Assembly (NCBI RefSeq): GCF_024436035.1
Contig: NZ_JANFNG010000018.1
Span: forward strand, 62,001-126,000
Direction of reading: 5' to 3'
Length of the DNA: 64,000 nucleotides
DNA from: Streptomyces humicola
GTDB taxonomy: Bacteria; Actinomycetota; Actinomycetes; Streptomycetales; Streptomycetaceae
In this document: piece after piece, positions 8,027 to 23,087 of the stretch
Layout of the letters: the number at the start of each line of letters is the position of its first letter
Position numbering within the stretch: the first letter of the stretch is position 1
Translations under genes and position numbers: made by a program
Notes under the pieces: model-generated
The model's input: only the letters and a program-made list of their open reading frames with translations
Told to the model about the DNA's origin: nothing
Databases searched by the model: none

Positions 8027-10156
8027 TCACGCCGGGCGTTGAAGAACGACGAGGCTGCGGTCGGCGAGCAGGAGCCGATCCCCCGCCCGCACCTTGCGGC
8101 CGCTGCCCGGCGCCACTCCGTCCGCGACCGCGGTGTCGACCACCACTTGCCACTCCTTTCCGTGGTTGACGGGGACGACGAACTCCATCGGCTCATGGTG
8201 TGCGTTGAACATCAGCAGGAAGGAATCGTCGGTGATCTTCTCCCCGCGCGCACCGGGCTCGGAGATCGCGTGGCCGTTGAGGAAGACCACCAGCGACTTG
8301 GCCTGGGCCGCCTCCCAGTCCCGCTGCGTCATCTCCTCACCCTCGGGGGTGAACCAGGCGATGTCCGAGAGCTCGTCGTGGGTGCCCTCCACCGGTCTAC
8401 CGTGGAAGAAGCGGCGCCGCCGGAAGACCGGGTGGTCGCGGCGCAGCCACACCATCGTGCGGGTGAAGTCGAGCAGCGCCAGCGCGTCCGCGTCCTCCTC
8501 ACTGCCGCCCTTCGGCCACGGGACCCACGTCACCTCGTTGTCCTGGCAGTACGCGTTGTTGTTGCCGCCCTGCGTGCGCCCGAACTCGTCGCCGTGGCTG
8601 AGCATGGGCACGCCCTGCGAGAGCATCAGCGTGGCGATGAAGTTGCGCATCTGGCGGCCGCGCAGGGCGTTGATCCCGGGGTCGTCCGTCTCGCCCTCGA
8701 CGCCGCAGTTCCACGACCTGTTGTGGCTCTCGCCGTCCCGGTCGCCCTCGCCGTTGGCCGCGTTGTGCTTCTCGTTGTAGCTGACGAGGTCGCGGAGGGT
8801 GAAGCCGTCGTGGCAGGTCACGAAGTTGATGGAGGCGAGCGGCCGGCGGCCGTCGTCCTGGTAGAGGTCGGACGAGCCCGTCAGCCGCGAGCCGAACTCG
8901 GCGAGCGTGGCGGGCTGTCCCCGCCACAGGTCGCGCACCGTGTCGCGATAGGCGCCGTTCCACTCCGTCCACATCGGCGGGAAGTTGCCCACCTGGTAGC
9001 CGCCCTCGCCGACGTCCCACGGCTCGGCGATCAGCTTCACCTGGCTGACCACCGGATCCTGCTGCACCAGGTCGAAGAAGGACGACAGGCGGTCCACCTC
9101 GTGGAACTGGCGCGCCAGGGTGGCGGCGAGGTCGAAGCGGAATCCGTCGACGTGCATCTCGGTGACCCAGTAGCGCAGCGAATCCATGATCATCTGGAGT
9201 GCGTGCGGGCTCCGCATCAGCAGCGAGTTGCCGGTTCCCGTGGTGTCCGTGTAGTAGCGGCGGTCCTTGCTCAGCCGGTAGTACGAGGCGTTGTCGAGGC
9301 CGCGGAAGGAGAGCGTCGGGCCCAGGTGGTTGCCCTCGGCGGTGTGGTTGTAGACGACGTCGAGGATCACCTCGATCCCGGCCATGTGCAGGGCGCGCAC
9401 CGCCGTCTTGAACTCCAGTACCTGCTGGCCGCGGTCGCCCATGGACGAGTACGCGTTGTGCGGGGCGAAGAAGCCGATCGTGTTGTAGCCCCAGTAGTTG
9501 GTCAGGCCCGCGTCGACCAACCGGTGGTCGGTGACGAACTGATGCACCGGCATCAGCTCCAGCGCCGTCACCCCGAGCTCCACCAGGTGCTCGATGACAG
9601 CCGGATGGGCGAGCGCCGCGTAAGTGCCGCGGATCTCCTGGGGGAGCCCCGGGTGCAGCATCGTCAGGCCCTTCACGTTGGCCTCGTAGAGCACCGTGCG
9701 GTGGTAGTCGATGCGCGGTGAGCGGTCGTCGGACCAGTCGAAGAACGGGTTGACGACGACGGAGGTCATCGTGTGCGGCGCCGAGTCGAGGTCGTTGCGC
9801 ACCTCGGGGTGCTCGAAACGGTAGCCGTAGACGGCCTCGTTCCAATCGACGGTGCCGCTCATCGCCTTGGCGTACGGATCGAGCAGAAGTTTGGCCGAAT
9901 TGCATCGGTGGCCGAGCGAAGGTTCGTACGGGCCGTGCACCCGGAACCCGTACCGCTGGCCGGGCATCACACCGGGAACATAGGCATGACGTACGAACGC
10001 ATCCGTCTCGCGCAGCTCTATGGCCGTTTCCGAGCCGTCGTCGTGCAACAGGCACAGCTCGATGCGCTCGGCCACCTCGGAGAAAACCGCGAAGTTGGTA
10101 CCGGCGCCGTCGTACGTCGCGCCAAGGGGATACGCCTGCCCGGGCCAGACCTGCAT
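8027..10156 (-). CDS. glgX: glycogen debranching enzyme GlgX
   Basis: A 709-residue GH13 isoamylase-type enzyme that cleaves alpha-1,6 branches of phosphorylase-trimmed glycogen and supplies maltodextrin to TreY. The N-terminus MQVWPGQAYPLGATYDGAGTNF contains the CBM48-type start. Catalytic motifs are DVVYNHTAEGNHLGP near residue 265, GFRFDLAATLAR near 338, AEPWDVGEGGYQVGNFP near 374 and SHGDEFGRTQGGNNNAYCQDN. The ATG at 10156 is chosen because the family starts there and GAGAG lies just upstream. The frame stays open further upstream, but through a 17-bp tandem repeat that is unlikely to be coding. With treY and treZ it forms a glycogen-to-trehalose route. Confidence 0.95.
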   Translation of the reverse strand: MQVWPGQAYPLGATYDGAGTNFAVFSEVAERIELCLLHDDGSETAIELRETDAFVRHAYVPGVMPGQRYGFRVHGPYEPSLGHRCNSAKLLLDPYAKAMSGTVDWNEAVYGYRFEHPEVRNDLDSAPHTMTSVVVNPFFDWSDDRSPRIDYHRTVLYEANVKGLTMLHPGLPQEIRGTYAALAHPAVIEHLVELGVTALELMPVHQFVTDHRLVDAGLTNYWGYNTIGFFAPHNAYSSMGDRGQQVLEFKTAVRALHMAGIEVILDVVYNHTAEGNHLGPTLSFRGLDNASYYRLSKDRRYYTDTTGTGNSLLMRSPHALQMIMDSLRYWVTEMHVDGFRFDLAATLARQFHEVDRLSSFFDLVQQDPVVSQVKLIAEPWDVGEGGYQVGNFPPMWTEWNGAYRDTVRDLWRGQPATLAEFGSRLTGSSDLYQDDGRRPLASINFVTCHDGFTLRDLVSYNEKHNAANGEGDRDGESHNRSWNCGVEGETDDPGINALRGRQMRNFIATLMLSQGVPMLSHGDEFGRTQGGNNNAYCQDNEVTWVPWPKGGSEEDADALALLDFTRTMVWLRRDHPVFRRRRFFHGRPVEGTHDELSDIAWFTPEGEEMTQRDWEAAQAKSLVVFLNGHAISEPGARGEKITDDSFLLMFNAHHEPMEFVVPVNHGKEWQVVVDTAVADGVAPGSGRKVRAGDRLLLADRSLVVLQRPA

Positions 10157-10474
10157 CTCTCGACTCTTCCGCTTGTGCCACTCTTCCGCTTGTGCCACGC
10201 GGGCGCCAGGCCGCCCTGGTGCATCTTCGCGCACCAAACGGCGCTTGTGTCCGTTTTCGCAAGATCTTCCCCTGAACGGGTGCCCGATCCGGGCCGTCTG
10301 GCCGCGGCGGCCGGCGGCGCGCAGGGGCGGTACGCTGCAACAGCCGCCGCCCACAGGCCTGATGGGCAGTGGCGGAGACGTGAAAGTAGTGAAGTAGGAC
10401 CCATAGAGCTGCGCCCTGTCCTGCCCCCGCAGTAACCTTCCTTGATCGTAGGCGGGGGCGGGAGAGGCGGTGCG
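10157..10474. promoter_or_regulatory. divergent intergenic region between glgX and the HEPN gene
   Basis: This 318-bp region lies between two divergently transcribed genes and should hold both promoters. Near the glgX start is a perfect 17-bp tandem repeat. On the plus side, AAGTAGGACCCATAGAG near 10391-10407 has A/T-richer steps that might be a -10 element, but no consensus -35 is obvious. I see no convincing gene inside. Confidence 0.4.
10163..10196. repeat. 17-bp tandem repeat upstream of glgX
   Basis: The unit ACTCTTCCGCTTGTGCC occurs twice head to tail at 10163-10179 and 10180-10196. It ends at the A at 10197 and lies 7-40 bp upstream of the glgX start. The spacing is close to 1.6 helical turns, so the copies are not on the same DNA face. 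It could be a regulator or RNA-binding site in the glgX leader, or a recent slippage duplication. Confidence 0.8.
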
Positions 10475-11740
10475 GTGGTGACGTCGGGAGGTCTGGTGCT
10501 GCCGGGCGGCGGTGACCAGGAGAACCAAGGCGACGCCATCGACGGGACGGCGGCCACTGTCTCCCTGGCTCAGCCCAAGGAGCCCAAAGAGATCGGAACG
10601 GAATTGGAGTGGGGCGCCGAGGCCTGGGCCGAGGTGCGCACCCGCGCCCGGCGCGCCGGACGGGCGTACGTGTGGCTCAATCTCGTCGAACAGCGGCTGC
10701 GGGCCGTCGTCGGCTCTGTGCTGCGGCCCATCTACGAACCGGTGCACGGCGAGGAATGGGTGGTGGCGGCCGCCGGCCCCGCCGGCCACGAATGGGTGCA
10801 GCGGGCCGCCGCCGTACGCGAGGTCAGCCGCCGCAAGGGATACCTGCTCGACCCGGCCGACGACAACATCCTCAGCTTTCTGACGCTGCCGCAGCTGCGT
10901 GAACTCGTCATCCAGCACTGGCCGTGCTTCGAACCGTATCTCGACGAGCGGCGCGAGCTCGAGCTGGTCCTCGACGAACTAGAAGTCGCCCGGCACGTCG
11001 TCAACCGCAACCGGGCGCTGTCCGAGACGGTGCTCGCGCAGGCGGAGCGGGCAGCAGCGCGTCTGCTCGACATGCTCGGCAGCGGCCCGGAGGCGCGCTC
11101 CGGCGACCGGTTGCCGGTCGATGCCGTCGAACAGATCGTGGGCGACCGGTACTCGGACGTGATCGGCGTCCACCCCGACCGGGTGCGGCTGCTGCGACGG
11201 CTGCCCGCCGAGGATCTGTTCGGCGGCGCGAGACGCCTCGACGCGATAGGCATAGGGCTCAACCTGCTGGTGCAGAACTACTCGGGGCGCCGGCTTGTAC
11301 GCCTCGCCGAGTCCGGCTGCCGGGTACGGCTGCTCTTCCTCAACCCGGCCAGCAGCGCGGTGCGCCGCCGGGAGCGCGAACTTGGCCTCGGGCGCGGTGA
11401 GATGAGCCGTTCGGTCGAGATGAACATCATGCACATGCGCAGGGTGCGGGCGCGGCTGCGCGACCCGGACGCCTTCGAGATCCGTGTCTTCGACGAGACG
11501 CCGCGCTTCACCGCGTACTTGGTGGACGGGGACGGGGCGGACGGGATCGCGGTGGTGCAGTCGTATCTGCGCAAGGCGCGGGGCATGGAGGCGCCGGTCA
11601 TCGTGTTGCGCGGCGGCAGCCGACGGCTCGTCCAGCGGCAGGGCGAAGCACCCGCCGACCGGAACGGTGAGCACGGCCTGTTCGAGATCTACCGCGAGGA
11701 GTTCGAGGGGGTCTGGGCCGATTCCCGGCCCGTGTCGTGA
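10475..11740 (+). CDS. SAV2148-family HEPN domain protein with DUF5919-like domain
   Basis: A 421-residue protein matching what I know as the SAV2148 family, conserved in Streptomyces. The first half is helical. It includes a HEPN/Swt1-like bundle around residues 85-200 with QLRELVIQHWPCFEPYLD and EVARHVVNRNRALSE. The second half, from about residue 230 (EDLFGGARRLDAIGIGLNLL) through CRVRLLFLNP to VQSYLRKARGME, resembles the DUF5919 module found in Streptomyces regulators. The expected catalytic His of the HEPN Rx4-6H motif is not obvious: the matching stretch reads R-HVVN-R. The GTG at 10475 is chosen for GGAGAG 8 nt upstream. Function is unknown; RNA binding or cleavage is only a family-level hint. 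Confidence 0.75.
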   Translation: MVTSGGLVLPGGGDQENQGDAIDGTAATVSLAQPKEPKEIGTELEWGAEAWAEVRTRARRAGRAYVWLNLVEQRLRAVVGSVLRPIYEPVHGEEWVVAAAGPAGHEWVQRAAAVREVSRRKGYLLDPADDNILSFLTLPQLRELVIQHWPCFEPYLDERRELELVLDELEVARHVVNRNRALSETVLAQAERAAARLLDMLGSGPEARSGDRLPVDAVEQIVGDRYSDVIGVHPDRVRLLRRLPAEDLFGGARRLDAIGIGLNLLVQNYSGRRLVRLAESGCRVRLLFLNPASSAVRRRERELGLGRGEMSRSVEMNIMHMRRVRARLRDPDAFEIRVFDETPRFTAYLVDGDGADGIAVVQSYLRKARGMEAPVIVLRGGSRRLVQRQGEAPADRNGEHGLFEIYREEFEGVWADSRPVS

Positions 11741-11827
11741 TCGCCCGCCCCAGCCCGCCCCGGGCTCGTTGTCAGTGGTGCACGAGATGATGGGGAGTGT
11801 CAGGGGGAGATGAGGAGGGGGTCCGCC

Positions 11828-12562
11828 ATGGGATGGCACCACGAGCTGCTCGTCGGCTTCGACTTGGAGACGACGGGCACGGATCCGACGCAGGCACGCA
11901 TCGTCAGCGGTGCGATCACCGAGGTCAGCGACGGCGAGCCGACAAGGGTCCGGGCATGGCTGGTCGATCCTGCCGTGCCGATTCCGGCCCAGGCCACGGC
12001 CGTTCACGGCATCACCACCGCCAGGGCGCGCGCCGAGGGCCGCCCCGCGCACGAGGCGGTGGCGGAGATGGCCGAGGCGCTCGGTGCGTACTGGGCGTCC
12101 GGCGTGCCGGTGGTCGTCTACAACGCGCCGTTCGACCTGAGCCTGCTCGCCGCCGAGCTGGCCCGGCACGGGCTCCCGTCGCTCGACGGCTCAGTGGGCC
12201 CGGTCGTCGACCCGCTCACGGTCGACCGGGCCGTCGACCGCTACCGCAAGGGCAGGCGCACGCTGGAAGCCGTGTGCGGTGTCTACGAGGTGGCGCTGGA
12301 CGGGGCGCACGAAGCCGGCGCCGACGCGCTCGCCGCCGTCCGGGTCGCGCGTGCGATAGCCGAGCGGTATCCGCAGATAGCCGCCGCCGAGCCCTGGGAG
12401 CTGCACCGCTCCCAGACGGCTTGGTACAGCCAATGGGCGGAAGGCTATGAGCGGTGGCTGCGACGCGGGCAGGACAAGGAGGCGGTGGTGGACCGCAGAT
12501 GGCCGGTGAGGCCGGCGCAGCCCGACGCCGTCACGATCAGAACGGGTACCAGCGCACCGTAG
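11828..12562 (+). CDS. DEDD-family 3'-5' exonuclease
   Basis: A 244-residue stand-alone exonuclease domain related to the epsilon subunit of DNA polymerase III. All three exonuclease motifs are visible: ExoI FDLETTGTD at residues 10-18, ExoII VYNAPFDLSLL near residue 98, and ExoIII HEAGADALAA near residue 160. The His-x4-Asp spacing marks the DEDDh subtype. AGGAGGGGG lies 6 nt before the ATG at 11828. It is downstream of the HEPN gene in the same orientation and separated by 87 bp. Its last 26 bp overlap the 3' end of the convergent phosphotransferase gene. The substrate (DNA or RNA) cannot be told from sequence. Confidence 0.88.
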   Translation: MGWHHELLVGFDLETTGTDPTQARIVSGAITEVSDGEPTRVRAWLVDPAVPIPAQATAVHGITTARARAEGRPAHEAVAEMAEALGAYWASGVPVVVYNAPFDLSLLAAELARHGLPSLDGSVGPVVDPLTVDRAVDRYRKGRRTLEAVCGVYEVALDGAHEAGADALAAVRVARAIAERYPQIAAAEPWELHRSQTAWYSQWAEGYERWLRRGQDKEAVVDRRWPVRPAQPDAVTIRTGTSAP

Positions 12563-14184: not shown

Positions 14185-15108
14185 TCAGCGCGCCTCTGTG
14201 AGGAGTCCGCGGCTGCGCAGGACGCGTCGTTCGGCGGGTTTGAAGATGAGCAGTTCGATGCCGATGCCGACGATGAGGATGAGGATGATGGCGGCGAGGA
14301 CTCCGGGCATGTCGGCGTTGGTGCGGGCGTTTTCCAGGAGTTGTCCGAGGCCGGTGCCGAGCGCGGGTGAGGTGGCGATGATCTCGGCGGCCATCAGGGA
14401 GCGCCAGGAGAAGGCCCAGCCCTGCTTGAGGCCTGCCAGGTAGCCGGGGAGGGCTGCGGGCAGCAGTATGTGCCGTACGCCGTTGATCCCGGTGGCGCCG
14501 ATGGTGCGGCCGGCGCGCAGGAAGAGCGGGGGGACCTGGTCGATGCCGGCGACCAGGCCGTTGGCGATGGAGGGGACGGCGCCGAGGAGGACGACGGCGT
14601 AGATGGTGGAGTCGTTGAGGCCGAACCAGATGATGGCGGCGGGGACCCAGGCGACCGAGGGCATGGACTGCAGCCCGGACAGGATCGGGCCGATCGCTGC
14701 GCGGACGGCGGGGATGCGGGCGACGAGCAGGCCGAGGGGTGTGCCGATGGCGACGGAGGCGAGGAAGCCGAGCGCGCCGCGGGAGACGCTGGTCCAGATG
14801 TAGCCGAACAGGGTGCCCTGCAGCCAGTCCTGGTGGAGCGAGCCGATGACGTCGCCGGGGCTGGGCAGCAGGTAGTGCGGCTTGAGCTGGAAGTGGTAGG
14901 CCAACTGCCAGGCGGCGAGCACGAGAACGATCGCCAGGAGGGGCGGCAGCGCCTTGGTGCGCAGGATCTGCCCGATGGGCGCCTTGGCGGCGGTGCGGGT
15001 CTCCAGCGCGTCCAGGCCGGCTTCGAGGCCTGCCAGATCCGGCTTGTCGGCGGCAGGCTTTCCATTCGTCGGCTTCTCTGCTGTCGGTTTGATGTCAGTG
15101 CTGGCCAT
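14185..15108 (-). CDS. ssuC: ABC transporter permease, sulfonate/taurine type
   Basis: A 307-residue integral membrane subunit of a BPD-type importer. After a charged N-terminal tail of about 45 residues come about six hydrophobic segments starting at ALPPLLAIVLVLAAWQLAY. The EAA loop appears as GRTIGATGINGVRHILLPAALPGYLAGLK near residue 215. The ATG at 15108 overlaps the end of the ATPase gene by 14 bp, indicating coupling. With the adjacent ATPase, the lipoprotein and the sulfate assimilation genes, aliphatic sulfonates are the likely substrate, though taurine or sulfate esters are possible. Confidence 0.9.
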   Translation of the reverse strand: MASTDIKPTAEKPTNGKPAADKPDLAGLEAGLDALETRTAAKAPIGQILRTKALPPLLAIVLVLAAWQLAYHFQLKPHYLLPSPGDVIGSLHQDWLQGTLFGYIWTSVSRGALGFLASVAIGTPLGLLVARIPAVRAAIGPILSGLQSMPSVAWVPAAIIWFGLNDSTIYAVVLLGAVPSIANGLVAGIDQVPPLFLRAGRTIGATGINGVRHILLPAALPGYLAGLKQGWAFSWRSLMAAEIIATSPALGTGLGQLLENARTNADMPGVLAAIILILIVGIGIELLIFKPAERRVLRSRGLLTEAR

Positions 15109-15889
15109 GGCGGCGGATCTCCCCCCGGAGCTGTTCGGTGATCTGGACGGACAACTCGGCGACGTCGGCGTCCTCGATGCGGCGCGGGTGCGGGATGTCG
15201 ACCTGCCATTCGCGGGCGATGCGGCCGGGCCGGGAGGAGAGCAGGACGACACGCTGTGCGAGGCGCACGGCTTCGCGCACATTGTGGGTGACGAACAGCA
15301 CCGAGACGCCCGTGGACTCCCAGATGTGGGTGAGTTCTTCGTGGAGGACGTCGCGGGTGATGGCGTCGAGCGCGGCGAACGGCTCGTCCATCAGCAGCAG
15401 GTTGCTGTCCTGGGCGAGTGCGCGGGCCATCGCCACGCGTTGCCGCATGCCCCCGGACAGCTCGTGCACCCGCTTGCCGTAGGCGCCCTTGAGCCGGACC
15501 AGTTCGAGCAGTTGCTCGGCGCGTTCGCGGCGCTCGCCGCGGGCCACGCCACGCATCCGCAGGGCGAGTTCGATGTTGCGGCCCGCGGTCAGCCACGGGA
15601 ACAGGGCATGCTCCTGGAACATCAGGGCCGGCCGGCCGCCGGGCGTCTCGATCGTCCCGGCGGAGGACCGGTCGAGCCCGGCGACGAGGTTGAGCAGCGT
15701 CGACTTGCCGCATCCCGAGGCCCCCAGGAGGCAGACGAACTCACCGGGCGCCACATCGATGCTGATGTCGTCAAGCACCTGCTGGGCCGCCCCTGGCCGG
15801 CCGAAGGCCTTCGAGACGTGGTCGAGCCGGGCGGCATACGGGACGTCCGTCCCGGGGCGGGTAGGCGTCTCGCTGATCGCCGTGGTCAT
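15095..15889 (-). CDS. ssuB: ABC transporter ATP-binding protein, sulfonate/taurine type
   Basis: A 264-residue ATPase energising the sulfonate importer on the cytoplasmic face. Walker A GASGCGKSTLL is near residue 56, Q-loop MFQEHALFPWL near 90, signature LSGGMRQRVAMARAL near 143, Walker B LLLMDEPFAALD near 165 and switch His FVTHNVREA near 199. The length and the HNVREAVRLAQRVVLLSSRPGRI tail match the SsuB/TauB group. It lies 39 bp downstream of the substrate-binding lipoprotein gene and overlaps the permease gene. Confidence 0.93.
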   Translation of the reverse strand: MTTAISETPTRPGTDVPYAARLDHVSKAFGRPGAAQQVLDDISIDVAPGEFVCLLGASGCGKSTLLNLVAGLDRSSAGTIETPGGRPALMFQEHALFPWLTAGRNIELALRMRGVARGERRERAEQLLELVRLKGAYGKRVHELSGGMRQRVAMARALAQDSNLLLMDEPFAALDAITRDVLHEELTHIWESTGVSVLFVTHNVREAVRLAQRVVLLSSRPGRIAREWQVDIPHPRRIEDADVAELSVQITEQLRGEIRRHGQH

Positions 15890-15928
15890 GGGGTCACCTC
15901 CTGGGGGTGGTGGTGCGGGCTGGTGGCC

Positions 15929-17086
15929 TCAGCTGCCGAGGCCTGCGTCGGAGACCTGCGGCTTTCCTTCGGACTTCAGTACGGCATTGAGCGGGGTGAG
16001 GTCGTAGATGCCCTTCAGATCGGGCTGCTTGAGCAGCCCTGCGGCCACCCCGTGAGTGGCTTCCTGCTGCAGGGTGGAGGCGAGCGGGTCGTCGGTGACC
16101 TCGATGTTGCCGAACGCGGAGTCCAGGACCTTGCCCGGCAGCGGCTTGCCGTTCAGCGCCTGCAGCTGTGCGTTGATGGCGCTCTTCGCGGCCTCAGGGT
16201 TGGCCTTGATCCAGGCGTTGGCCTGCACCGAGCCGCGCAGCACTGCCTGCACGACATCCGGGTGCGCGGCGAGGAAGGACTGGGAGACGACGACGTTGGT
16301 GGTGACGAACTGCCCGCCCGGCCACAGCGACTTCTCGTCGATGAGGGTCCTGGCGCCGGCGGCAACGAGCTGGGAGGCGGTTGGTTCCGGTACCCAGGCA
16401 CCGTCGATCTGGCCCTGCTGGAAGGCGGTCACGGTGGTCTTGTTGTCGATCCGGGTGACGGTGACATCGCCCTTGCCGGTGGTCGGGTCCTCCTTGTAGC
16501 CCTTGCCCGCGAGGTAGTTGAGCAGCGCCACGTCCTGGGTGTTGCCCAGCTGCGGGGTGGCGATCGTCTTGCCCTTCAGATCACTCTCGCTCTTGATCTT
16601 GTTGGGGTTGACGACGAGGGACGCCCCGCCCGAGGTCGCGCCCGAGATGATCTTCAGGGACTTGCCCTTGGACTTGATGTAGCCGTTGATGGCGGGGGAG
16701 GGGCCGATCCAGCCGATGTCGATGGCGCCGGAGTTGAGCGCTTCGACCTCCGACGGGCCCGCGTTGAAAACTTGCGTCTTCAGCTGTGTGCCGCCCAGCT
16801 GCTTCTGGAACAGACCCTGCTGGACGCCGACGAGAGCGGTGGCGTGCGTGACGTTGGCGAAGTAGCCGATCGTGACGGAGTTGGCGGAGAGCTTCTTGCC
16901 GGAGGCGGCCACCGGTCCTGAGGCGTTGTCCTTCGTGGCCTGGGAGCCGTAACCGCAGGCGGCGAGCGAGGTGAGCAGCAGAGGGAGGGCGGCGGCCGCG
17001 ATCAGGCGGGCCGCTCTGCGGGCGGGGCGTGCTGGTCCTACGAGGGTGCGATCGGCCCGACGACGGAGTCGGCTAATGTCACTCAC
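15929..17086 (-). CDS. ssuA: sulfonate-type substrate-binding lipoprotein
   Basis: A 385-residue extracytoplasmic solute-binding protein of the SsuA/TauA/NMT1 fold. The N-terminal signal is Arg-rich (RLRRRADRTL) followed by a hydrophobic core and the lipobox LAAC, so Cys near residue 44 should be lipidated. Family motifs include TIGYFANVTHATALVGVQQG, GWIGPSPAINGYIKSKG and GAWVPEPTASQLV. The ATG at 17086 is preceded by AAAGGAACC. It delivers substrate to the SsuBC transporter encoded just downstream. Precise substrate preference cannot be read from sequence. Confidence 0.92.
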   Translation of the reverse strand: MSDISRLRRRADRTLVGPARPARRAARLIAAAALPLLLTSLAACGYGSQATKDNASGPVAASGKKLSANSVTIGYFANVTHATALVGVQQGLFQKQLGGTQLKTQVFNAGPSEVEALNSGAIDIGWIGPSPAINGYIKSKGKSLKIISGATSGGASLVVNPNKIKSESDLKGKTIATPQLGNTQDVALLNYLAGKGYKEDPTTGKGDVTVTRIDNKTTVTAFQQGQIDGAWVPEPTASQLVAAGARTLIDEKSLWPGGQFVTTNVVVSQSFLAAHPDVVQAVLRGSVQANAWIKANPEAAKSAINAQLQALNGKPLPGKVLDSAFGNIEVTDDPLASTLQQEATHGVAAGLLKQPDLKGIYDLTPLNAVLKSEGKPQVSDAGLGS

Positions 17087-17121
17087 GGGAGGGTTCCTTT
17101 GCGGAGGCCCGGGATCTCGCG

Positions 17122-17202
17122 CTATGGCGCGGCCGGGTCATGGGAAGGGCATTGGTGGTACGGCTTTGCATGCAGGTGCGGGGCGGCCGTCAGTGCACAC
17201 AT
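17122..17202 (-). CDS. possible 26-residue leader ORF upstream of ssuA
   Basis: In the 204-bp gap between cysN and ssuA an ATG at 17202 follows GGCGGAG at an 8-nt spacing. It opens a 26-codon frame, MCALTAAPHLHAKPYHQCPS followed by HDPAAP, ending 35 bp before ssuA. It contains two Cys and three His codons. Position and size would suit a regulatory upstream ORF, but it does not have the HVDLxR signature of known actinobacterial sulfur leaders and may be chance. Confidence 0.2.
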   Translation of the reverse strand: MCALTAAPHLHAKPYHQCPSHDPAAP

Positions 17203-17290
17203 CGCGCCACTCCGCCCTGCCCGCTGCCGCGGGTGCCGCTGCCGACGCGGCCGCCCTCCTTCGCGAACCCGGAGAAGGCTTCCCCGGTCA

Positions 17291-18649
17291 TCAGAAGTCC
17301 CATCCGTCGTCGGCCGTGCTGTCGGCCTCGGCCGCTGTTGTGCTGGTGGTGGGGAAGGCTTCGCCTGCCATGCCGGCGGTGAGGGTCTGTCCGTCGGCGG
17401 GGTCGATGAGGATGAACGCCCCGGTGCGGCGGGAGTCGGTGTATGCGTCGACGGCCAGCGGCTGGGCGGTGCGCAGCACGACGGAGCCGATGTCGTTGAC
17501 GGCCAGCTCGCCCGGGGCGTTGGTGCGGGCGAGGCCGGCATCCCGGTCGAAGGAGGTGACGTCCAGGCGGCCCGTGATGTCCTTCACGATCGCCTTGACG
17601 GTGCGGGTGCCGTGCTTGAGCAGCACGCGTTCGCCGATGCGCAGCGGGCGTTCGTGCAGGTGGCAGACGGTCGCGGTGATGTCCTGCGTCGGCGTGGGCG
17701 CTCCGGTGGCGGGGGCGATCACATCGCCGCGGGAGATGTCCAGGTCGTCGGCGAGGGTGATCGTCACCGACTGCGGGGCCCAGGCGACGTCGACGGCCTG
17801 GCCGAGGGCGTCGATGCCGGTGATGGCGGAGGTCTGCCCGGAGGGCAGGACGACCACCTGTTGGCCCACCCGCAGCAGGCCGGAGGCGATCTGCCCGGCG
17901 TAGCCGCGGAAGTCGTGGTGCTCCGGGGTCTGCGGGCGGATGACGTACTGGACGGGGAAGCGGGCCGGGGCGTCGGTCTGGTCGGTGCCGACCGGCACGG
18001 TCTCCAGGTGTTCCAGCAGGGTGGGGCCGCCGTACCAGTCCATGTGCGCCGAGGCGGTCACCACGTTGTCGCCGGCGAGTGCGGAGATGGGGATCGAGGT
18101 GATCTCCGGCACCCCGAGCGCGGTCGCGTAGTGGGTGAACTCCTCGGCGATCGCGGCGAAGACCGGCTCGGCGTAGTCGACCAGGTCCATCTTGTTCACC
18201 GCGAGGACGACGTGGGGGACGCGCAGCAGGGCGGCGACCGCGGCGTGGCGGCGGGTCTGCTCGACCACGCCGTTGCGGGCGTCGACCAGCACCACGGCCA
18301 GCTCCGCGGTGGAGGCGCCGGTGACCATGTTGCGGGTGTACTGCACATGGCCGGGGGTGTCGGCGAGGATGAACCTGCGCCTGGGGGTGGCGAAGTAGCG
18401 GTAGGCGACGTCGATAGTGATGCCCTGCTCCCGCTCCGCGCGCAGCCCGTCGGTGAGCAGAGCCAGGTCGGGGGCGTCCTGGCCGCGGCGGCGTGAGGCG
18501 TGCTCGACCGCCTCCAGCTGGTCGGCGAGCACCGACTTCGAGTCGTGCAGCAGCCGGCCGACCAGGGTGGACTTGCCGTCGTCCACGCTGCCGGCGGTGG
18601 CGAAGCGCAGCAGCGAGGTCGCCGAGGTATCAACGGTGGTGGCGGACAT
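17291..18649 (-). CDS. cysN: sulfate adenylyltransferase subunit 1 (GTPase)
   Basis: A 452-residue EF-Tu-like GTPase subunit of ATP sulfurylase; GTP hydrolysis drives formation of adenosine 5'-phosphosulfate by CysD. The G motifs are GSVDDGKSTLVGRLL (G1, near residue 20), GITIDVAYRYF (G2), DTPGHVQYTRNM (G3) and NKMDLVDYAEP (G4). Length is normal for the stand-alone subunit, with no CysC fusion, in agreement with a separate cysC upstream. Its start codon directly abuts the cysD stop codon. Confidence 0.96.
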   Translation of the reverse strand: MSATTVDTSATSLLRFATAGSVDDGKSTLVGRLLHDSKSVLADQLEAVEHASRRRGQDAPDLALLTDGLRAEREQGITIDVAYRYFATPRRRFILADTPGHVQYTRNMVTGASTAELAVVLVDARNGVVEQTRRHAAVAALLRVPHVVLAVNKMDLVDYAEPVFAAIAEEFTHYATALGVPEITSIPISALAGDNVVTASAHMDWYGGPTLLEHLETVPVGTDQTDAPARFPVQYVIRPQTPEHHDFRGYAGQIASGLLRVGQQVVVLPSGQTSAITGIDALGQAVDVAWAPQSVTITLADDLDISRGDVIAPATGAPTPTQDITATVCHLHERPLRIGERVLLKHGTRTVKAIVKDITGRLDVTSFDRDAGLARTNAPGELAVNDIGSVVLRTAQPLAVDAYTDSRRTGAFILIDPADGQTLTAGMAGEAFPTTSTTAAEADSTADDGWDF

Positions 18650-19585
18650 TTAGAAGTACCCCTCGCGCTTGCGGTCTTCCATCGCGGCCTCGGACAGCTT
18701 GTCGTCGGCGCGGGTCGCTCCCCGCTCGGTGAGCCGGGAGGCGGCGATCTCGGCGATCACCTGGTCGATGGTGGCGGCGTCGGAATCCACCGCACCGGTG
18801 CAGGACATGTCACCGACGGTGCGGTACCGCACCATGCGCGACTGGACGGTCTCGCCGTCCTTCGGGCCGCCCCACTCACCCGCCGTCAGCCACATCCCGT
18901 CTCGGGAGAACACCTGGCGGGTGTGCGCGTAGTAGATTTCCGGAAGCTCGATCTTCTCCCGCTCGATGTACTGCCACACATCCAGCTCGGTCCAGTTCGA
19001 CAACGGGAAGACCCGCACATGTTCACCCGGCGCGTGCCGGCCGTTGTACAGCTGCCACAACTCCGGCCGCTGACGGCGCGGATCCCACGCGCCGAACTCG
19101 TCGCGCAGCGAGAACACCCGCTCCTTCGCCCGCGCCTTCTCCTCATCCCGCCGTCCGCCGCCGAACACCGCGTCGTAGCGGCCCTCGTTGATGGCATCGA
19201 GCAACGGCACGGTCTGCAACGGGTTGCGGGTGCCGTCCAGGCGCTCGCGCAGCCTGCCGTCGTCGATGTAGTCCTGCACGGACGCCACATGCAGCCGCAG
19301 CCCGTACTTGGCCACCGTGCGATCCCGGTAGGCCAGAACCTCGGGGAAGTTGTGCCCGGTGTCCACATGCAAAAGCCCGAACGGCACCGCAGCCGGCGCG
19401 AACGCCTTCAGCGCCAGATGCAGCATCACGATCGAGTCCTTGCCACCGGAGAACAAGATCACCGGCCGCTCGAACTCACCCGCCACCTCACGGAAGATGT
19501 GCACACCCTCGGACTCCAACGCGTCCAAGTGCGAAAGCGCATACGGATTGTCGGTATCGGCACCGACAACGGGAGCCGTCGTCAC
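18650..19585 (-). CDS. cysD: sulfate adenylyltransferase subunit 2
   Basis: A 311-residue catalytic subunit of ATP sulfurylase, which makes APS from ATP and sulfate. The PP-loop FSGGKDSIVMLHLALKAF is near residue 45, followed by HVDTGHNFPEVLAYRD and FGGGRRDEEKARAKER. The conserved C-terminus TERGATRADDKLSEAAMEDRK ends KREGYF. The GTG at 19585 overlaps the stop of the preceding 74-codon ORF in a GTGA junction. It partners with CysN immediately downstream. Confidence 0.96.
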   Translation of the reverse strand: MTTAPVVGADTDNPYALSHLDALESEGVHIFREVAGEFERPVILFSGGKDSIVMLHLALKAFAPAAVPFGLLHVDTGHNFPEVLAYRDRTVAKYGLRLHVASVQDYIDDGRLRERLDGTRNPLQTVPLLDAINEGRYDAVFGGGRRDEEKARAKERVFSLRDEFGAWDPRRQRPELWQLYNGRHAPGEHVRVFPLSNWTELDVWQYIEREKIELPEIYYAHTRQVFSRDGMWLTAGEWGGPKDGETVQSRMVRYRTVGDMSCTGAVDSDAATIDQVIAEIAASRLTERGATRADDKLSEAAMEDRKREGYF

Positions 19586-19806
19586 GCTGCACCCCTTCCG
19601 CTCGCACCGCCGCGCCGGCGGCTACTGGCCCCATCAGGGGGCATCTCCCGCCGCAGGCAGGGGGAGGCTCCGCCACGGGCACTGTCGCCCGCGGGGCGCA
19701 CAGGCGCGGCCTCCCCCAGACTCCGTCCGGGGGTACCTCCTGTCCTCATCTGCGGCCCGGCGGCCGCCCCGCCGCGGTAGCAGCTGATGTCGCGGTCGTT
19801 GCTCAC
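19582..19806 (-). CDS. 74-codon repeat-derived ORF bridging cysC and cysD
   Basis: This ORF starts with GTG at 19806 in a GTGA overlap with the cysC stop and ends in a GTGA overlap with the cysD start, so ribosomes could pass cysC-ORF-cysD without a gap. The product starts MSNDRDISCYRGGAAAGPQM and then becomes Gly/Arg/Pro-rich low-complexity sequence. That part is the translation of a hairpin-rich intergenic repeat. I recognise no domain. It may be a real small protein with a conserved N-terminus, or a chance frame kept open to preserve translational coupling across an inserted repeat. Confidence 0.4.
   Translation of the reverse strand: MSNDRDISCYRGGAAAGPQMRTGGTPGRSLGEAAPVRPAGDSARGGASPCLRREMPPDGASSRRRGGASGRGAA
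19620..19745. repeat. Streptomyces-type intergenic hairpin repeat
   Basis: The stretch contains nested inverted repeats. GGGGGAGGC (19660-19668) can pair with GCCTCCCCC (19709-19717). CCCCCAGAC can pair with GTCCGGGGG around a TCC loop (19713-19733) with one G-U pair. Elements with the CCCCCAGACTCCGTCCGGGGG core recur between Streptomyces genes. Placement inside a coupled operon is unusual. Confidence 0.6.
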
Positions 19807-20378
19807 AGCAGTCCCCTCTCGCTCAGCAGCGCAGCCAGCGCCGCGGCGGACTCGTCCACGCTCTGCGTGTGCGCCTCGATCCGCAGGTCCGGTGCGGCCG
19901 GGGCCTCGTACGGGTCGTCCACACCCGTCAGGCCCGAGATCTCACCCGCCGCCTGCTTGGCGTACAGGCCCTTCACGTCCCGCACCGAACACACCTCGAC
20001 CGGAGTGGCCACATGCACCTCGAGGTACGTGGTGCCCGCCGCCTCGTGCCGCTTGCGCACCGCCTCACGGCTGCGCCCGTACGGAGCGATCACCGGCACC
20101 AGCGCCTTCACGCCGTTCGACGCCAGCAACTCGGCCACGAAACCGATCCGCTGCACATTGGTGTGCCGGTCTTCCGCGGTGAAACCGAGCCCCGCGGAGA
20201 GGAACTCGCGGATCTCGTCCCCGTCGAGCACCTCCACCCGGTGCCCGTCGCCCCGCAGCCGCTCCGCCAGCGCGTAGGCGATGGTCGTCTTCCCCGCGCT
20301 CGGCAGACCGGTGAGCCACACGGTGGCTCCCTGGCCTGTCACGCCCATTGATCGCTCCTGCTGTGTCACGTTCGTCAT
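19803..20378 (-). CDS. cysC: adenylyl-sulfate kinase
   Basis: A 191-residue APS kinase that phosphorylates APS to PAPS with ATP. The P-loop WLTGLPSAGKTTIAYAL is near residues 21-37, then LDGDEIREFLSAGLGF, RHTNVQRIGFVAELL and the lid segment RDVKGLYAKQAAGEISGLTGVDDPYE. The ATG at 20378 overlaps the cysH stop (ATGA), matching the pattern of the run. An alternative ATG at 20348 has a better ribosome site (AGGAG 7 nt upstream). The presence of both CysC and an APS-reductase-like CysH suggests that PAPS here mainly serves sulfotransfer. Confidence 0.93.
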   Translation of the reverse strand: MTNVTQQERSMGVTGQGATVWLTGLPSAGKTTIAYALAERLRGDGHRVEVLDGDEIREFLSAGLGFTAEDRHTNVQRIGFVAELLASNGVKALVPVIAPYGRSREAVRKRHEAAGTTYLEVHVATPVEVCSVRDVKGLYAKQAAGEISGLTGVDDPYEAPAAPDLRIEAHTQSVDESAAALAALLSERGLL

Positions 20379-21088
20379 CCGTGCAGCCCGCACTCGGTCT
20401 TGGCCCGGCCCGCCCAGCGGCCGGCCCGCGCGTCCTCACCTTCGAGCACGCGGCGGGTGCACGGTGCGCAGCCGACGGAGGCGTAGCCGTCCATCAGCAG
20501 TGGGTTGGTCAGTACGCCGTGTTCGGCGACGTAGGCGTCCACATCGGCCTGCGTCCAGCGGGCGATGGGGGAGACCTTGACCTTGCGGCGCTTGGCGTCC
20601 CAGCCGACGACCGGCGTGTTCGCGCGGGTCGGGGACTCGTCGCGGCGCAGGCCCGTCGCCCATGCGTCGTAGTTGCGCAACCCCTCTTCCAGGGGCTTGA
20701 CCTTGCGCAGCGCGCAGCACAGGTCGGGGTCGCGGTCGTGCAGCTTATCGCCGTACTCGGCGTCCTGCTCGGCCACCGTCTGGCGCGGGGTCAGCGTGAT
20801 GACGTTGACGTCCATCACCGCGGCCACGGCGTCGCGGGTGCCGATCGTCTCGGGGAAGTGGTAGCCGGTGTCGAGGAAGACCACGTCGACGCCGGGGAAC
20901 GCGCGCGAGGCGAGGTGCGCCACGACCGCGTCCTCCATCGAGGAGGTGACGCAGAAGCGCGGCCCGAACGTTTCGGCGGCCCACCGCAGCACGTCGAGCG
21001 CGTCGGCGTCCTCCAGGTCACGGCCCGCCTGCTCGGCCAGTTCCCGCAGTTCGTCCTCGGTACGGCCGGTGGTCGCTGCGGTGGTCAT
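20375..21088 (-). CDS. cysH: adenylyl-sulfate reductase (thioredoxin-dependent, CysH type)
   Basis: A 237-residue reductase producing sulfite from activated sulfate. The PAPS-reductase core shows FCVTSSMEDAVVAHL near residue 46 and DTGYHFPETIGTRD. Two paired cysteines, DLCCALRK near residue 123 and GCAPCTRRV near residue 207, are the four ligands of the [4Fe-4S] cluster that marks APS-specific reductases. The catalytic ECGLH is at the C-terminus. The ATG at 21088 overlaps the stop of the upstream zinc-ribbon gene. Confidence 0.95.
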   Translation of the reverse strand: MTTAATTGRTEDELRELAEQAGRDLEDADALDVLRWAAETFGPRFCVTSSMEDAVVAHLASRAFPGVDVVFLDTGYHFPETIGTRDAVAAVMDVNVITLTPRQTVAEQDAEYGDKLHDRDPDLCCALRKVKPLEEGLRNYDAWATGLRRDESPTRANTPVVGWDAKRRKVKVSPIARWTQADVDAYVAEHGVLTNPLLMDGYASVGCAPCTRRVLEGEDARAGRWAGRAKTECGLHG

Positions 21089-21264
21089 CGTGTGCCCCCT
21101 TCGTCAGTGCCGTGCCGCAGGCCCTTGGCCAGCAGCCCGATGAACGAGAGCCGGAACGCGCGATTGCACGATCCGCATTCCCACACTCCGTGGCCTTCCT
21201 CGGAGGGCCGCAGGTCCTCGTCGCCGCAGTACGGGCAGTAGAACGGCGCAGCACGCTCACTCAC
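21085..21264 (-). CDS. 59-residue zinc-ribbon protein between sulfite reductase and cysH
   Basis: A small gene with a GTGA overlap to the sulfite reductase stop and an ATGA overlap to the cysH start. The product begins VSERAAPFYCPYCGDEDLRP, continues with EEGHGVWECGSCNRAFRLSF and ends IGLLAKGLRHGTDEGGTR. Two CxxC knuckles (CPYC at residues 10-13 and CGSC near 33-36) predict a zinc or iron site. Tight coupling on both sides suggests a role in electron delivery to, or maturation of, the sulfite and APS reductases. This is inference; I know no demonstrated function. Confidence 0.85.
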   Translation of the reverse strand: MSERAAPFYCPYCGDEDLRPSEEGHGVWECGSCNRAFRLSFIGLLAKGLRHGTDEGGTR

Positions 21265-22958
21265 GACAACGCCTCCTCCGACGCACGCGATGCCCAGGCA
21301 GCGAACCGCTCGCCGTCCTCGCGTTCGGCCTGGAAGCGGCGGAGCACCCGCTCGATGTAGTCGGGGAGTTCGGCAGCGGTGACCTTCAGGCCGCGCACCT
21401 TGCGGCCGAATGCGGGGTCGAGGCCGAGGGTCCCGCCGAGGTGCACCTGGAAGCCCTCGACCTGCTCGCCGTCGTCGTTCATCACCAACTGGCCCTTGAG
21501 GCCGATGTCCGCGGTCTGGATGCGGGCGCAGGCGTTGGGGCAGCCGTTGACGTTGATGGTGATCGGCTCGTCGAACTCCGGCAGGCGCCGCTCCAGCTCC
21601 TCGATGAGCGCCGCGCCGCGCGCCTTGGTCTCCACGATGGCGAGCTTGCAGAACTCGATGCCGGTGCAGGCCATCGTGCCGCGCCGGAACGGCGAGGGGG
21701 TCACCTGGAAGCCGAGCGATTCGAGTCCGCTGACGAGGGAGTCAACGCGGTCCTGCTCGACGTCGAGGATGATCATCTTCTGTTCGACCGTGGTGCGGAG
21801 CCGGTCCGAGCCGTGGTCCGCGGCAAGCTCAGCGATCTTGGCGAGCGTGGGGCCGTCGACCCGCCCGACGCGCGGTGCGAACCCCACGTAGAACCGGCCG
21901 TCGCGCTGCGGGTGGACGCCGACGTGGTCGCGCCAGCGCGAGCGCGGCTCCTCGGGCGCGGGCCCGTCGGTCAGCTTGCGCTTCAGGTACTCGTCCTCCA
22001 GTACCTGGCGGAACTTCTCCGCACCCCAGTCGGCCAGCAGGAACTTCAGCCGGGCGCGGGTACGCAGCCGCCGGTAGCCGTAGTCGCGGAAGATGCCGAC
22101 CACGCCGGCCCACACGTCGGCCACCTCGTCGAGCGGCACCCAGGCGCCCAGCCGTTCCGCGAAGCGCGGGTTGGTGGACAGGCCGCCGCCGACCCACAGG
22201 TCGAAACCGGGCCCGTGCTCGGGGTGGACGACTCCGACGAAGGCGACGTCGTTGATCTCGTGGACGACGTCCTGGATCGGCGAGCCGGAGATCGCGGTCT
22301 TGAACTTGCGCGGCAGGTTCGAGAACTGCTTGCTGCCGATGAAGCGCTCGTGGATCTCCTCGATCGCGGGTGTGCCGTCGATGATCTCGTCCGCGGCGAT
22401 CCCGGCGACCGGCGAGCCGATCACCACGCGCGGGCAGTCGCCGCACGCCTCGGTGGTGGACAGGCCGACGGCCTCCAGCTTCTCCCAGATCGCGGGCACG
22501 TCCTCGATCCGCACCCAGTGCAACTGGATGTTCTGGCGGTCGGTGATGTCGGCGGTGCCGCGCGCGTAGCTCTCCGAGACCTCGCCGATGGCGCGCAGCT
22601 GGGCGACGGTGAGGCGGCCGCCGTCGATGCGCACCCGCATCATGAAGTACTTGTCGTCGAGCTCCTCCGGCTCGAGGACGGCGGTCTTGCCGCCGTCGAT
22701 GCCGGGCTTGCGCTGGGTGTACAGGCCCCACCAGCGCATACGACCGCGCAGGTCGGCGGGGTCGATCGCGTCGAAGCCGCGGTGGGCGTAGATCGTCTCA
22801 ATGCGTGTCCGCACATTGAGACCGTCGTCGTCCTTCTTGGACTGTTCGTTGCCGTTGAGCGGCGTGAAATGGCCGACGGCCCACTGGCCCTCGCCGCGGT
22901 GGCGGTGGGCCTTGCGGCGCTGGGGCGCAGCTTTGGAGGTCTCGGGCGTGGTGGCCAT
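21261..22958 (-). CDS. sir: assimilatory sulfite reductase (ferredoxin-type, siroheme)
   Basis: A 565-residue siroheme/[4Fe-4S] enzyme of the nitrite/sulfite reductase family, reducing sulfite to sulfide. Two ferredoxin-like half-domains and two siroheme domains are visible. Motifs are RMRWWGLYTQRKPGIDGG, DITDRQNIQLHWVRIEDVP and ACGDCPRVVIGSP. The cluster cysteines lie in MACTGIEFCKLA near residue 429 and NGCPNACAR near residue 471. The surrounding cys genes favour sulfite over nitrite. The ATG at 22958 is chosen; an in-frame TTG at 22973 is less likely. It is the first large gene of the run, 130 bp behind a leader ORF. Confidence 0.95.
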   Translation of the reverse strand: MATTPETSKAAPQRRKAHRHRGEGQWAVGHFTPLNGNEQSKKDDDGLNVRTRIETIYAHRGFDAIDPADLRGRMRWWGLYTQRKPGIDGGKTAVLEPEELDDKYFMMRVRIDGGRLTVAQLRAIGEVSESYARGTADITDRQNIQLHWVRIEDVPAIWEKLEAVGLSTTEACGDCPRVVIGSPVAGIAADEIIDGTPAIEEIHERFIGSKQFSNLPRKFKTAISGSPIQDVVHEINDVAFVGVVHPEHGPGFDLWVGGGLSTNPRFAERLGAWVPLDEVADVWAGVVGIFRDYGYRRLRTRARLKFLLADWGAEKFRQVLEDEYLKRKLTDGPAPEEPRSRWRDHVGVHPQRDGRFYVGFAPRVGRVDGPTLAKIAELAADHGSDRLRTTVEQKMIILDVEQDRVDSLVSGLESLGFQVTPSPFRRGTMACTGIEFCKLAIVETKARGAALIEELERRLPEFDEPITINVNGCPNACARIQTADIGLKGQLVMNDDGEQVEGFQVHLGGTLGLDPAFGRKVRGLKVTAAELPDYIERVLRRFQAEREDGERFAAWASRASEEALS

Positions 22959-23087
22959 GGCGTTGCGGTCCAATCAAGCAGACTCAGGGCGGTGCGTGGC
23001 GCGGCGTCCCTGGCCTGCGGAGGCTGGGCAGCGGAGACCGCGCGTCCGCGACGACGGGAAGTGCGTGAGGGGTACGGCGCTGGACGG

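Follow-up and report, generated by a model that had tools for sequence, protein, structure and literature searches.

The SAV_2148-type HEPN-DUF5919 protein of Streptomycetaceae appears to have lost both canonical nuclease sites

The window analysed here, a 64,000-nucleotide stretch of the Streptomyces humicola genome, encodes a SAV_2148-type protein that joins two nuclease-type domains, an N-terminal HEPN domain and a C-terminal DUF5919 domain with a phospholipase D (PLD)-type fold. Judged from alignments, both canonical nuclease sites are lost, since the HEPN histidine is replaced by Arg178 and DUF5919 lacks the HxK of PLD enzymes. Because neither nuclease-type domain retains its standard catalytic residues, the protein probably acts by binding and regulation, not by cutting.

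Domain architecture of the protein

10475..11740, + strand: HEPN_SAV2148-DUF5919 protein of 421 aa, starting at GTG and present in all 249 Streptomycetaceae genomes sampled

The initial annotation had proposed a HEPN-like and a DUF5919-like domain for this gene, and both the pairing and its coordinates proved right: Pfam places HEPN_SAV2148 (PF18725) at residues 36–244 (E 1.2e-124) and DUF5919 (PF19319) at residues 255–421 (E 4.3e-87). The closest named relative (93%) comes from a Streptomycetaceae MAG. Sequence searches of solved structures returned nothing significant. A full-length structure prediction from 45 Streptomyces sequences gave a poor model (pLDDT 51), with which Foldseek found no match below E 0.4; the listed matches to its C-terminal half are PLD-type proteins. 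Given this model, the HEPN part of our case rests on sequence profiles.

The family and its HEPN-PLD architecture are already known. A 2013 table already lists SAV_2148 as a HEPN–phospholipase D fusion whose HEPN is inactive (Anantharaman et al., PMC3710099), and the Streptomyces protein described here has the same family and architecture (PF18725 + PF19319). The His→Arg site and the HxK loss, both located here, are absent from the passages of that account consulted. The gene had been called conserved yet unstudied, which agrees with its presence throughout the sampled family and with our finding no dedicated study of a SAV_2148-type gene in the open literature searched. The same search found no paper naming DUF5919.

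An invariant arginine replaces the HEPN histidine

10592..11095, + strand: HEPN domain (residues 40–207), from PF18725, PADLOC PDC-M34B (E 7.6e-12), hhalign to Rx4H relatives and weak Csm6-HEPN structural matches
10688..10702, + strand: retained HEPN Ex3R motif, E72-QRL-R76, in 102/102 distinct proteins
10745..10747, + strand: H91, the only invariant His of the HEPN domain and a candidate alternative site, in 102/102 proteins
10991..11014, + strand: altered HEPN motif R173-HVVN-R178-N179-R180, with R178 where Rx4H has its catalytic His

Profile comparisons place the domain in the HEPN superfamily (the PF18725 match above; hhalign probability 98). The Csm6-HEPN matches of the pLDDT 51 model (Z 7.0 and 6.7) are too low to be trusted for a helical bundle. 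Conservation was counted over 102 distinct aligned family proteins, and the motif was compared with that of five distant relatives found via the PADLOC PDC-M34B model, all five of which contain Rx4H. In a joint alignment and in a profile–profile alignment (hhalign probability 98, E 7e-13), the catalytic Arg of these relatives aligns with R173 and their catalytic His with R178. R173, R178, N179 and R180 are invariant in all 102 family proteins. Since R178 aligns on the Rx4H His and is itself invariant, the alignment indicates that the catalytic His has been exchanged for Arg178 throughout the HEPN_SAV2148 family, from which the Rx4-6H motif is absent (102/102). The R-HVVN-R motif singled out in the initial annotation as an altered Rx4-6H is thus real and correctly spaced, with R178 in place of the His; its H174, on the other hand, is not a conserved residue (N in 76/102). 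A different register, with R178-N179 as the catalytic Arg and the His at position 183, was dropped after alignment with the Rx4H relatives.

These residues might instead form a rebuilt active site, with H91, R173, R178, N179 and R180 standing in for the Rx4H chemistry, and the protein would still be an RNase. All five are fixed rather than drifting across the family, and Ex3R is kept. Moreover, PMC3710099 describes HEPN groups without the motif His whose additional conserved His, located upstream, could provide an alternative active site, as proposed there for AbiV and one HEPN-T group. With H91 invariant, such groups make RNase activity through an H91-based site possible. However, every HEPN_SAV2148 member has Arg in place of the motif His, a residue that tested HEPN RNases cannot do without, and none of the five Rx4H relatives has a His aligned with H91. 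We regard an active RNase of this kind as unlikely. For motif-less HEPN domains, RNA binding has been suggested (Anantharaman 2013, PMC3710099).

DUF5919 is a PLD-type fold without HxK

11138..11737, + strand: DUF5919 domain (residues 222–421), PLD-superfamily fold without HxK (model pLDDT 82, pTM 0.80)
11504..11527, + strand: site corresponding to the HxKxxxxD signature, reading R344-F-T346-AYLV-D351 in this protein (from 20 aligned DUF5919 domains)

Similarity among DUF5919 proteins extends upstream of the Pfam start (residue 255) to approximately residue 222. Residues 222–421, aligned with 25 family and five virus-contig relatives, were modelled alone, giving the scores listed above. The best Foldseek matches of this model all belong to the PLD superfamily (TrmBL2, E 6.9e-6). 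Structural comparison returned TrmBL2 (Z 12.8; 139 aligned, 3.2 Å), FAM83B (Z 12.3) and TrmB (Z 12.1), with further matches to NucT (Z 11.9), Nuc (Z 11.1) and Zucchini (Z 10.8). By sequence, PLDc_2 is touched in seven of 20 DUF5919 members, below the PLDc_2 cut-off in the one case examined.

HxK is absent from all 20 aligned DUF5919 domains. Within the HEPN-DUF5919 family the HxKxxxxD signature reads RxTxxxxD, in a register inferred from the conserved D; R344 is found in 102/102 family proteins and D351 in 98/102. The columns of R236, G281, P291, R299, D351 and P374 are invariant across the 20 domains, and R236, G281, P291, R299 and P374 are also kept in 102/102 family proteins. On the strength of model and alignment, we assign DUF5919 to a PLD-type fold of the TrmBL2/TrmB kind in which the HKD motif is missing its H and K. 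The lost HEPN His and the absent HxK together argue against nucleic-acid cutting by known mechanisms.

The archaeal regulators TrmBL2 and TrmB likewise join a C-terminal PLD-type fold to a binding domain. However, no sequence similarity to them was detected, and HEPN replaces HTH: the N-terminal TrmB HTH is absent from our protein, and only the PLD-type part matches, corresponding to TrmB residues 110–242. The pseudo-PLD domain DUF1669 of FAM83, a eukaryotic scaffold for casein kinase 1, is also a close model match, but FAM83 has no HEPN.

DUF5919 relatives are HTH regulators next to phosphohydrolase genes

DUF5919 had initially been described as otherwise found in regulators, and in most relatives examined outside the HEPN family it does lie behind an HTH-like N-terminal part. 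These HTH-DUF5919 proteins, xre-nud included, share the domain at 23–39% identity; they combine it with a DNA-binding HTH and a phosphohydrolase partner, whereas the SAV_2148-type locus has HEPN and an exonuclease. A phosphohydrolase gene directly follows the HTH-DUF5919 gene in 23 of 26 loci. In the nearest group (29–39% identity) it encodes an inositol-monophosphatase-superfamily (IMPase) protein (7/7), and in the distant group a NUDIX gene is next (16/19). Across 177 kb of HTH-DUF5919 loci, the IMPase and NUDIX patterns turned up only two further times, and 388 kb of control loci contained neither; the controls are a single syntenic region from 24 genomes, so their length overstates their independence. 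Histidinol-phosphatase and inositol-phosphatase models come closest to the paired phosphatase, which scores under the cut-offs of both.

The IMPase-paired loci are L060:6793-8443 (G000:C76) and L098–L103. Those of the NUDIX group are L104–L117 and L202–L206, and five of them lie on virus-collection contigs; no near-group DUF5919 gene was found on virus contigs. The G000:C76 pair, the one HTH-DUF5919/IMPase pair in the window's own genome, probably lies on an integrative element, because a TraB/FtsK-like gene adjoins it. The xre-nud cluster is known on actinomycete ICEs, in an account that does not name DUF5919 (PMC3218068).

Distribution and gene neighbourhood

11828..12562, + strand: DEDDh 3'-5' exonuclease, PRK07942 type, 244 aa (NF005927 E 1.5e-92; residues FDLET, YNAPFD, HEAGAD)
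8027..10156, − strand: glgX-type glycogen debranching gene, divergent neighbour in 27/28 and 76/77 loci

The HEPN-DUF5919 gene, a syntenic, single-copy core gene, was found in all 249 sampled Streptomycetaceae genomes, which span 17 genera, and in none of the genomes sampled outside this family. Across the phylum, PF18725 scores above cut-off in 10 of 346 genomes, all Streptomycetaceae. A weak PF18725 match in genome G363 (25.8 bits, under cut-off) was read as spurious, its frame being antisense to an oxidoreductase-like ORF.

A proofreading-type exonuclease does follow in the same direction, as first annotated: it starts 87 bp downstream of the HEPN-DUF5919 gene, and its DEDDh catalytic set is intact by eye, which together with the NF005927 match places it in the DEDDh (DnaQ) family. 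The accompanying suggestion that the two genes form a nucleic-acid decay or sensing module fared less well. Among close loci, which come almost entirely from Streptomyces, 75 of 78 have the exonuclease gene adjacent and on the same strand, but the gap is mostly 64–244 bp rather than coupled. Across genera, adjacency falls to 19 of 28 loci (non-adjacent in nine), against 27 of 28 for the divergent glgX. Seven of the 249 family genomes have no exonuclease homolog and others have only a weaker match. The gene is gone from the site in more genomes still, among them the one closest to the window (L036, 93% identity), all of which keep the HEPN gene. Conserved linkage in other genomes, on which the module had been staked, therefore holds among close loci and only in part beyond them, where it is looser than that of glgX. 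Because the linkage breaks across genera, we treat the two genes as neighbours by synteny. They form no obligate two-gene module, and nothing points to dependence of one on the other; the exonuclease is a frequent neighbour and an enzyme in its own right, not a required partner. A joint decay or sensing module is accordingly improbable.

The divergent genes upstream are glgX and treY, and the genes downstream are phosphotransferase-like, CbiX-like, for a sulphonate-type ABC transporter and for sulphate assimilation (all names by eye). The region at 14185-22973 of the window carries sulphonate transport genes together with cysN, cysD, cysH and sulphite reductase (by eye), and the transporter part is kept in many relatives. 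At several loci (L122, L135, L164 and others), an insertion of ∼2.2 kb separates glgX from the HEPN gene; the L122 insertion, the one case read, encodes a secreted protein whose sequence resembles copper amine oxidase.

This neighbourhood raises the prospect of a regulator tied to glycogen and trehalose genes that senses sugar as TrmB does, a proposal that would suit the persistent glgX, the nearby treY and the TrmB-like fold of the DUF5919 model. Yet the TrmB sugar residue N305 (PMC10817205) lies outside the matched residues 110–242, so TrmB sugar sensing is not transferable to DUF5919. The neighbouring cluster also includes sulphur-assimilation genes, and the HTH is missing. Sugar sensing by the HEPN-DUF5919 protein is not supported beyond gene context, and we give this proposal little credence.

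A conserved element upstream of the gene

10430..10449, + strand: strongly conserved, promoter-like (TANNCT) upstream element CAGTAACCTTCCTTGATCGT, in ∼90 Streptomyces-type loci

The element, CAGTA(N)CCTTCCTTGATCGT, is nearly invariant in ∼90 Streptomyces-type loci and is separated from the gene start by a variable spacer of 40–110 nt. It occurs once in the genome. A TANNCT box forms part of it, preceded at 17–18 nt by a conserved block resembling CTGCA. Its sequence suggests that it is perhaps a gene-specific promoter. This reading fits better than an RNA hairpin hiding the ribosome site (CCTTCC...GGAAGG), for which RNAalifold and a shuffle test gave no support (8.4 versus 7.8 paired bases).

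Relationship to Swt1-type HEPN proteins

Swt1-type HEPN proteins, represented by PDC-M34B, give a significant profile match to the HEPN_SAV2148 family, and both share the R, the Ex3R and a W..F helix pattern. They differ in that Swt1-type proteins keep Rx4H where the HEPN_SAV2148 family has Arg, and the examined Swt1/PDC-M34B examples lack DUF5919. The annotation 'Swt1 family HEPN' carried by relatives on plasmids agrees with the class given in PMC3710099. One PDC-M34B-type HEPN gene (L221:2032-3323), with an intact RGPIAH, stands directly behind a small gene and is a candidate defence pair.

A defence or toxin-type role for the HEPN-DUF5919 protein, which the PDC-M34B match and the Swt1-type annotation of plasmid relatives might suggest, is very improbable: its gene is a universal, syntenic, single-copy core gene, a distribution unlike that of a mobile toxin, the motif His is lost, and no small gene like that ahead of the L221 HEPN was seen near the HEPN-DUF5919 gene of the window.

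Proposed function

Taking sequence, model and analogy together, we tentatively propose, at somewhat less than even confidence, that the HEPN-DUF5919 protein is a regulator with a HEPN output domain and a pseudo-PLD sensor or dimer domain. DUF5919 would dimerise and probably sense a ligand, after the pattern of HTH-fused DUF5919 proteins and TrmB-type regulators, while HEPN would serve as the output in place of the HTH. The HEPN domain would most likely bind RNA, through the R173/R178/R180 cluster, and a sensing role is possible. The ligand, a weaker part of the proposal, may be a phosphorylated small molecule or a nucleotide, because DUF5919 regulators adjoin phosphohydrolase genes.

A bolder version, which we think unlikely as a whole, would have the pseudo-PLD domain DUF5919 sense a phosphorylated metabolite or a nucleotide, its HTH having been swapped for a His-less HEPN in the ancestor of the Streptomycetaceae, giving a universal, ligand-controlled RNA-binding regulator. 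If so, the regulator would be unlike any described, and the hydrolase that normally partners DUF5919 would remove the ligand.

Implications

What is new here is the location of both lost sites, the universal but family-restricted distribution in our sample, and the pairing of DUF5919 regulators with phosphohydrolases. With both standard nuclease sites lost, the question moves from what the protein cuts to what it binds, and the HTH-DUF5919 operons offer a concrete lead to the ligand. Every Streptomycetaceae genome sampled carries the gene, which likely matters for growth or development.
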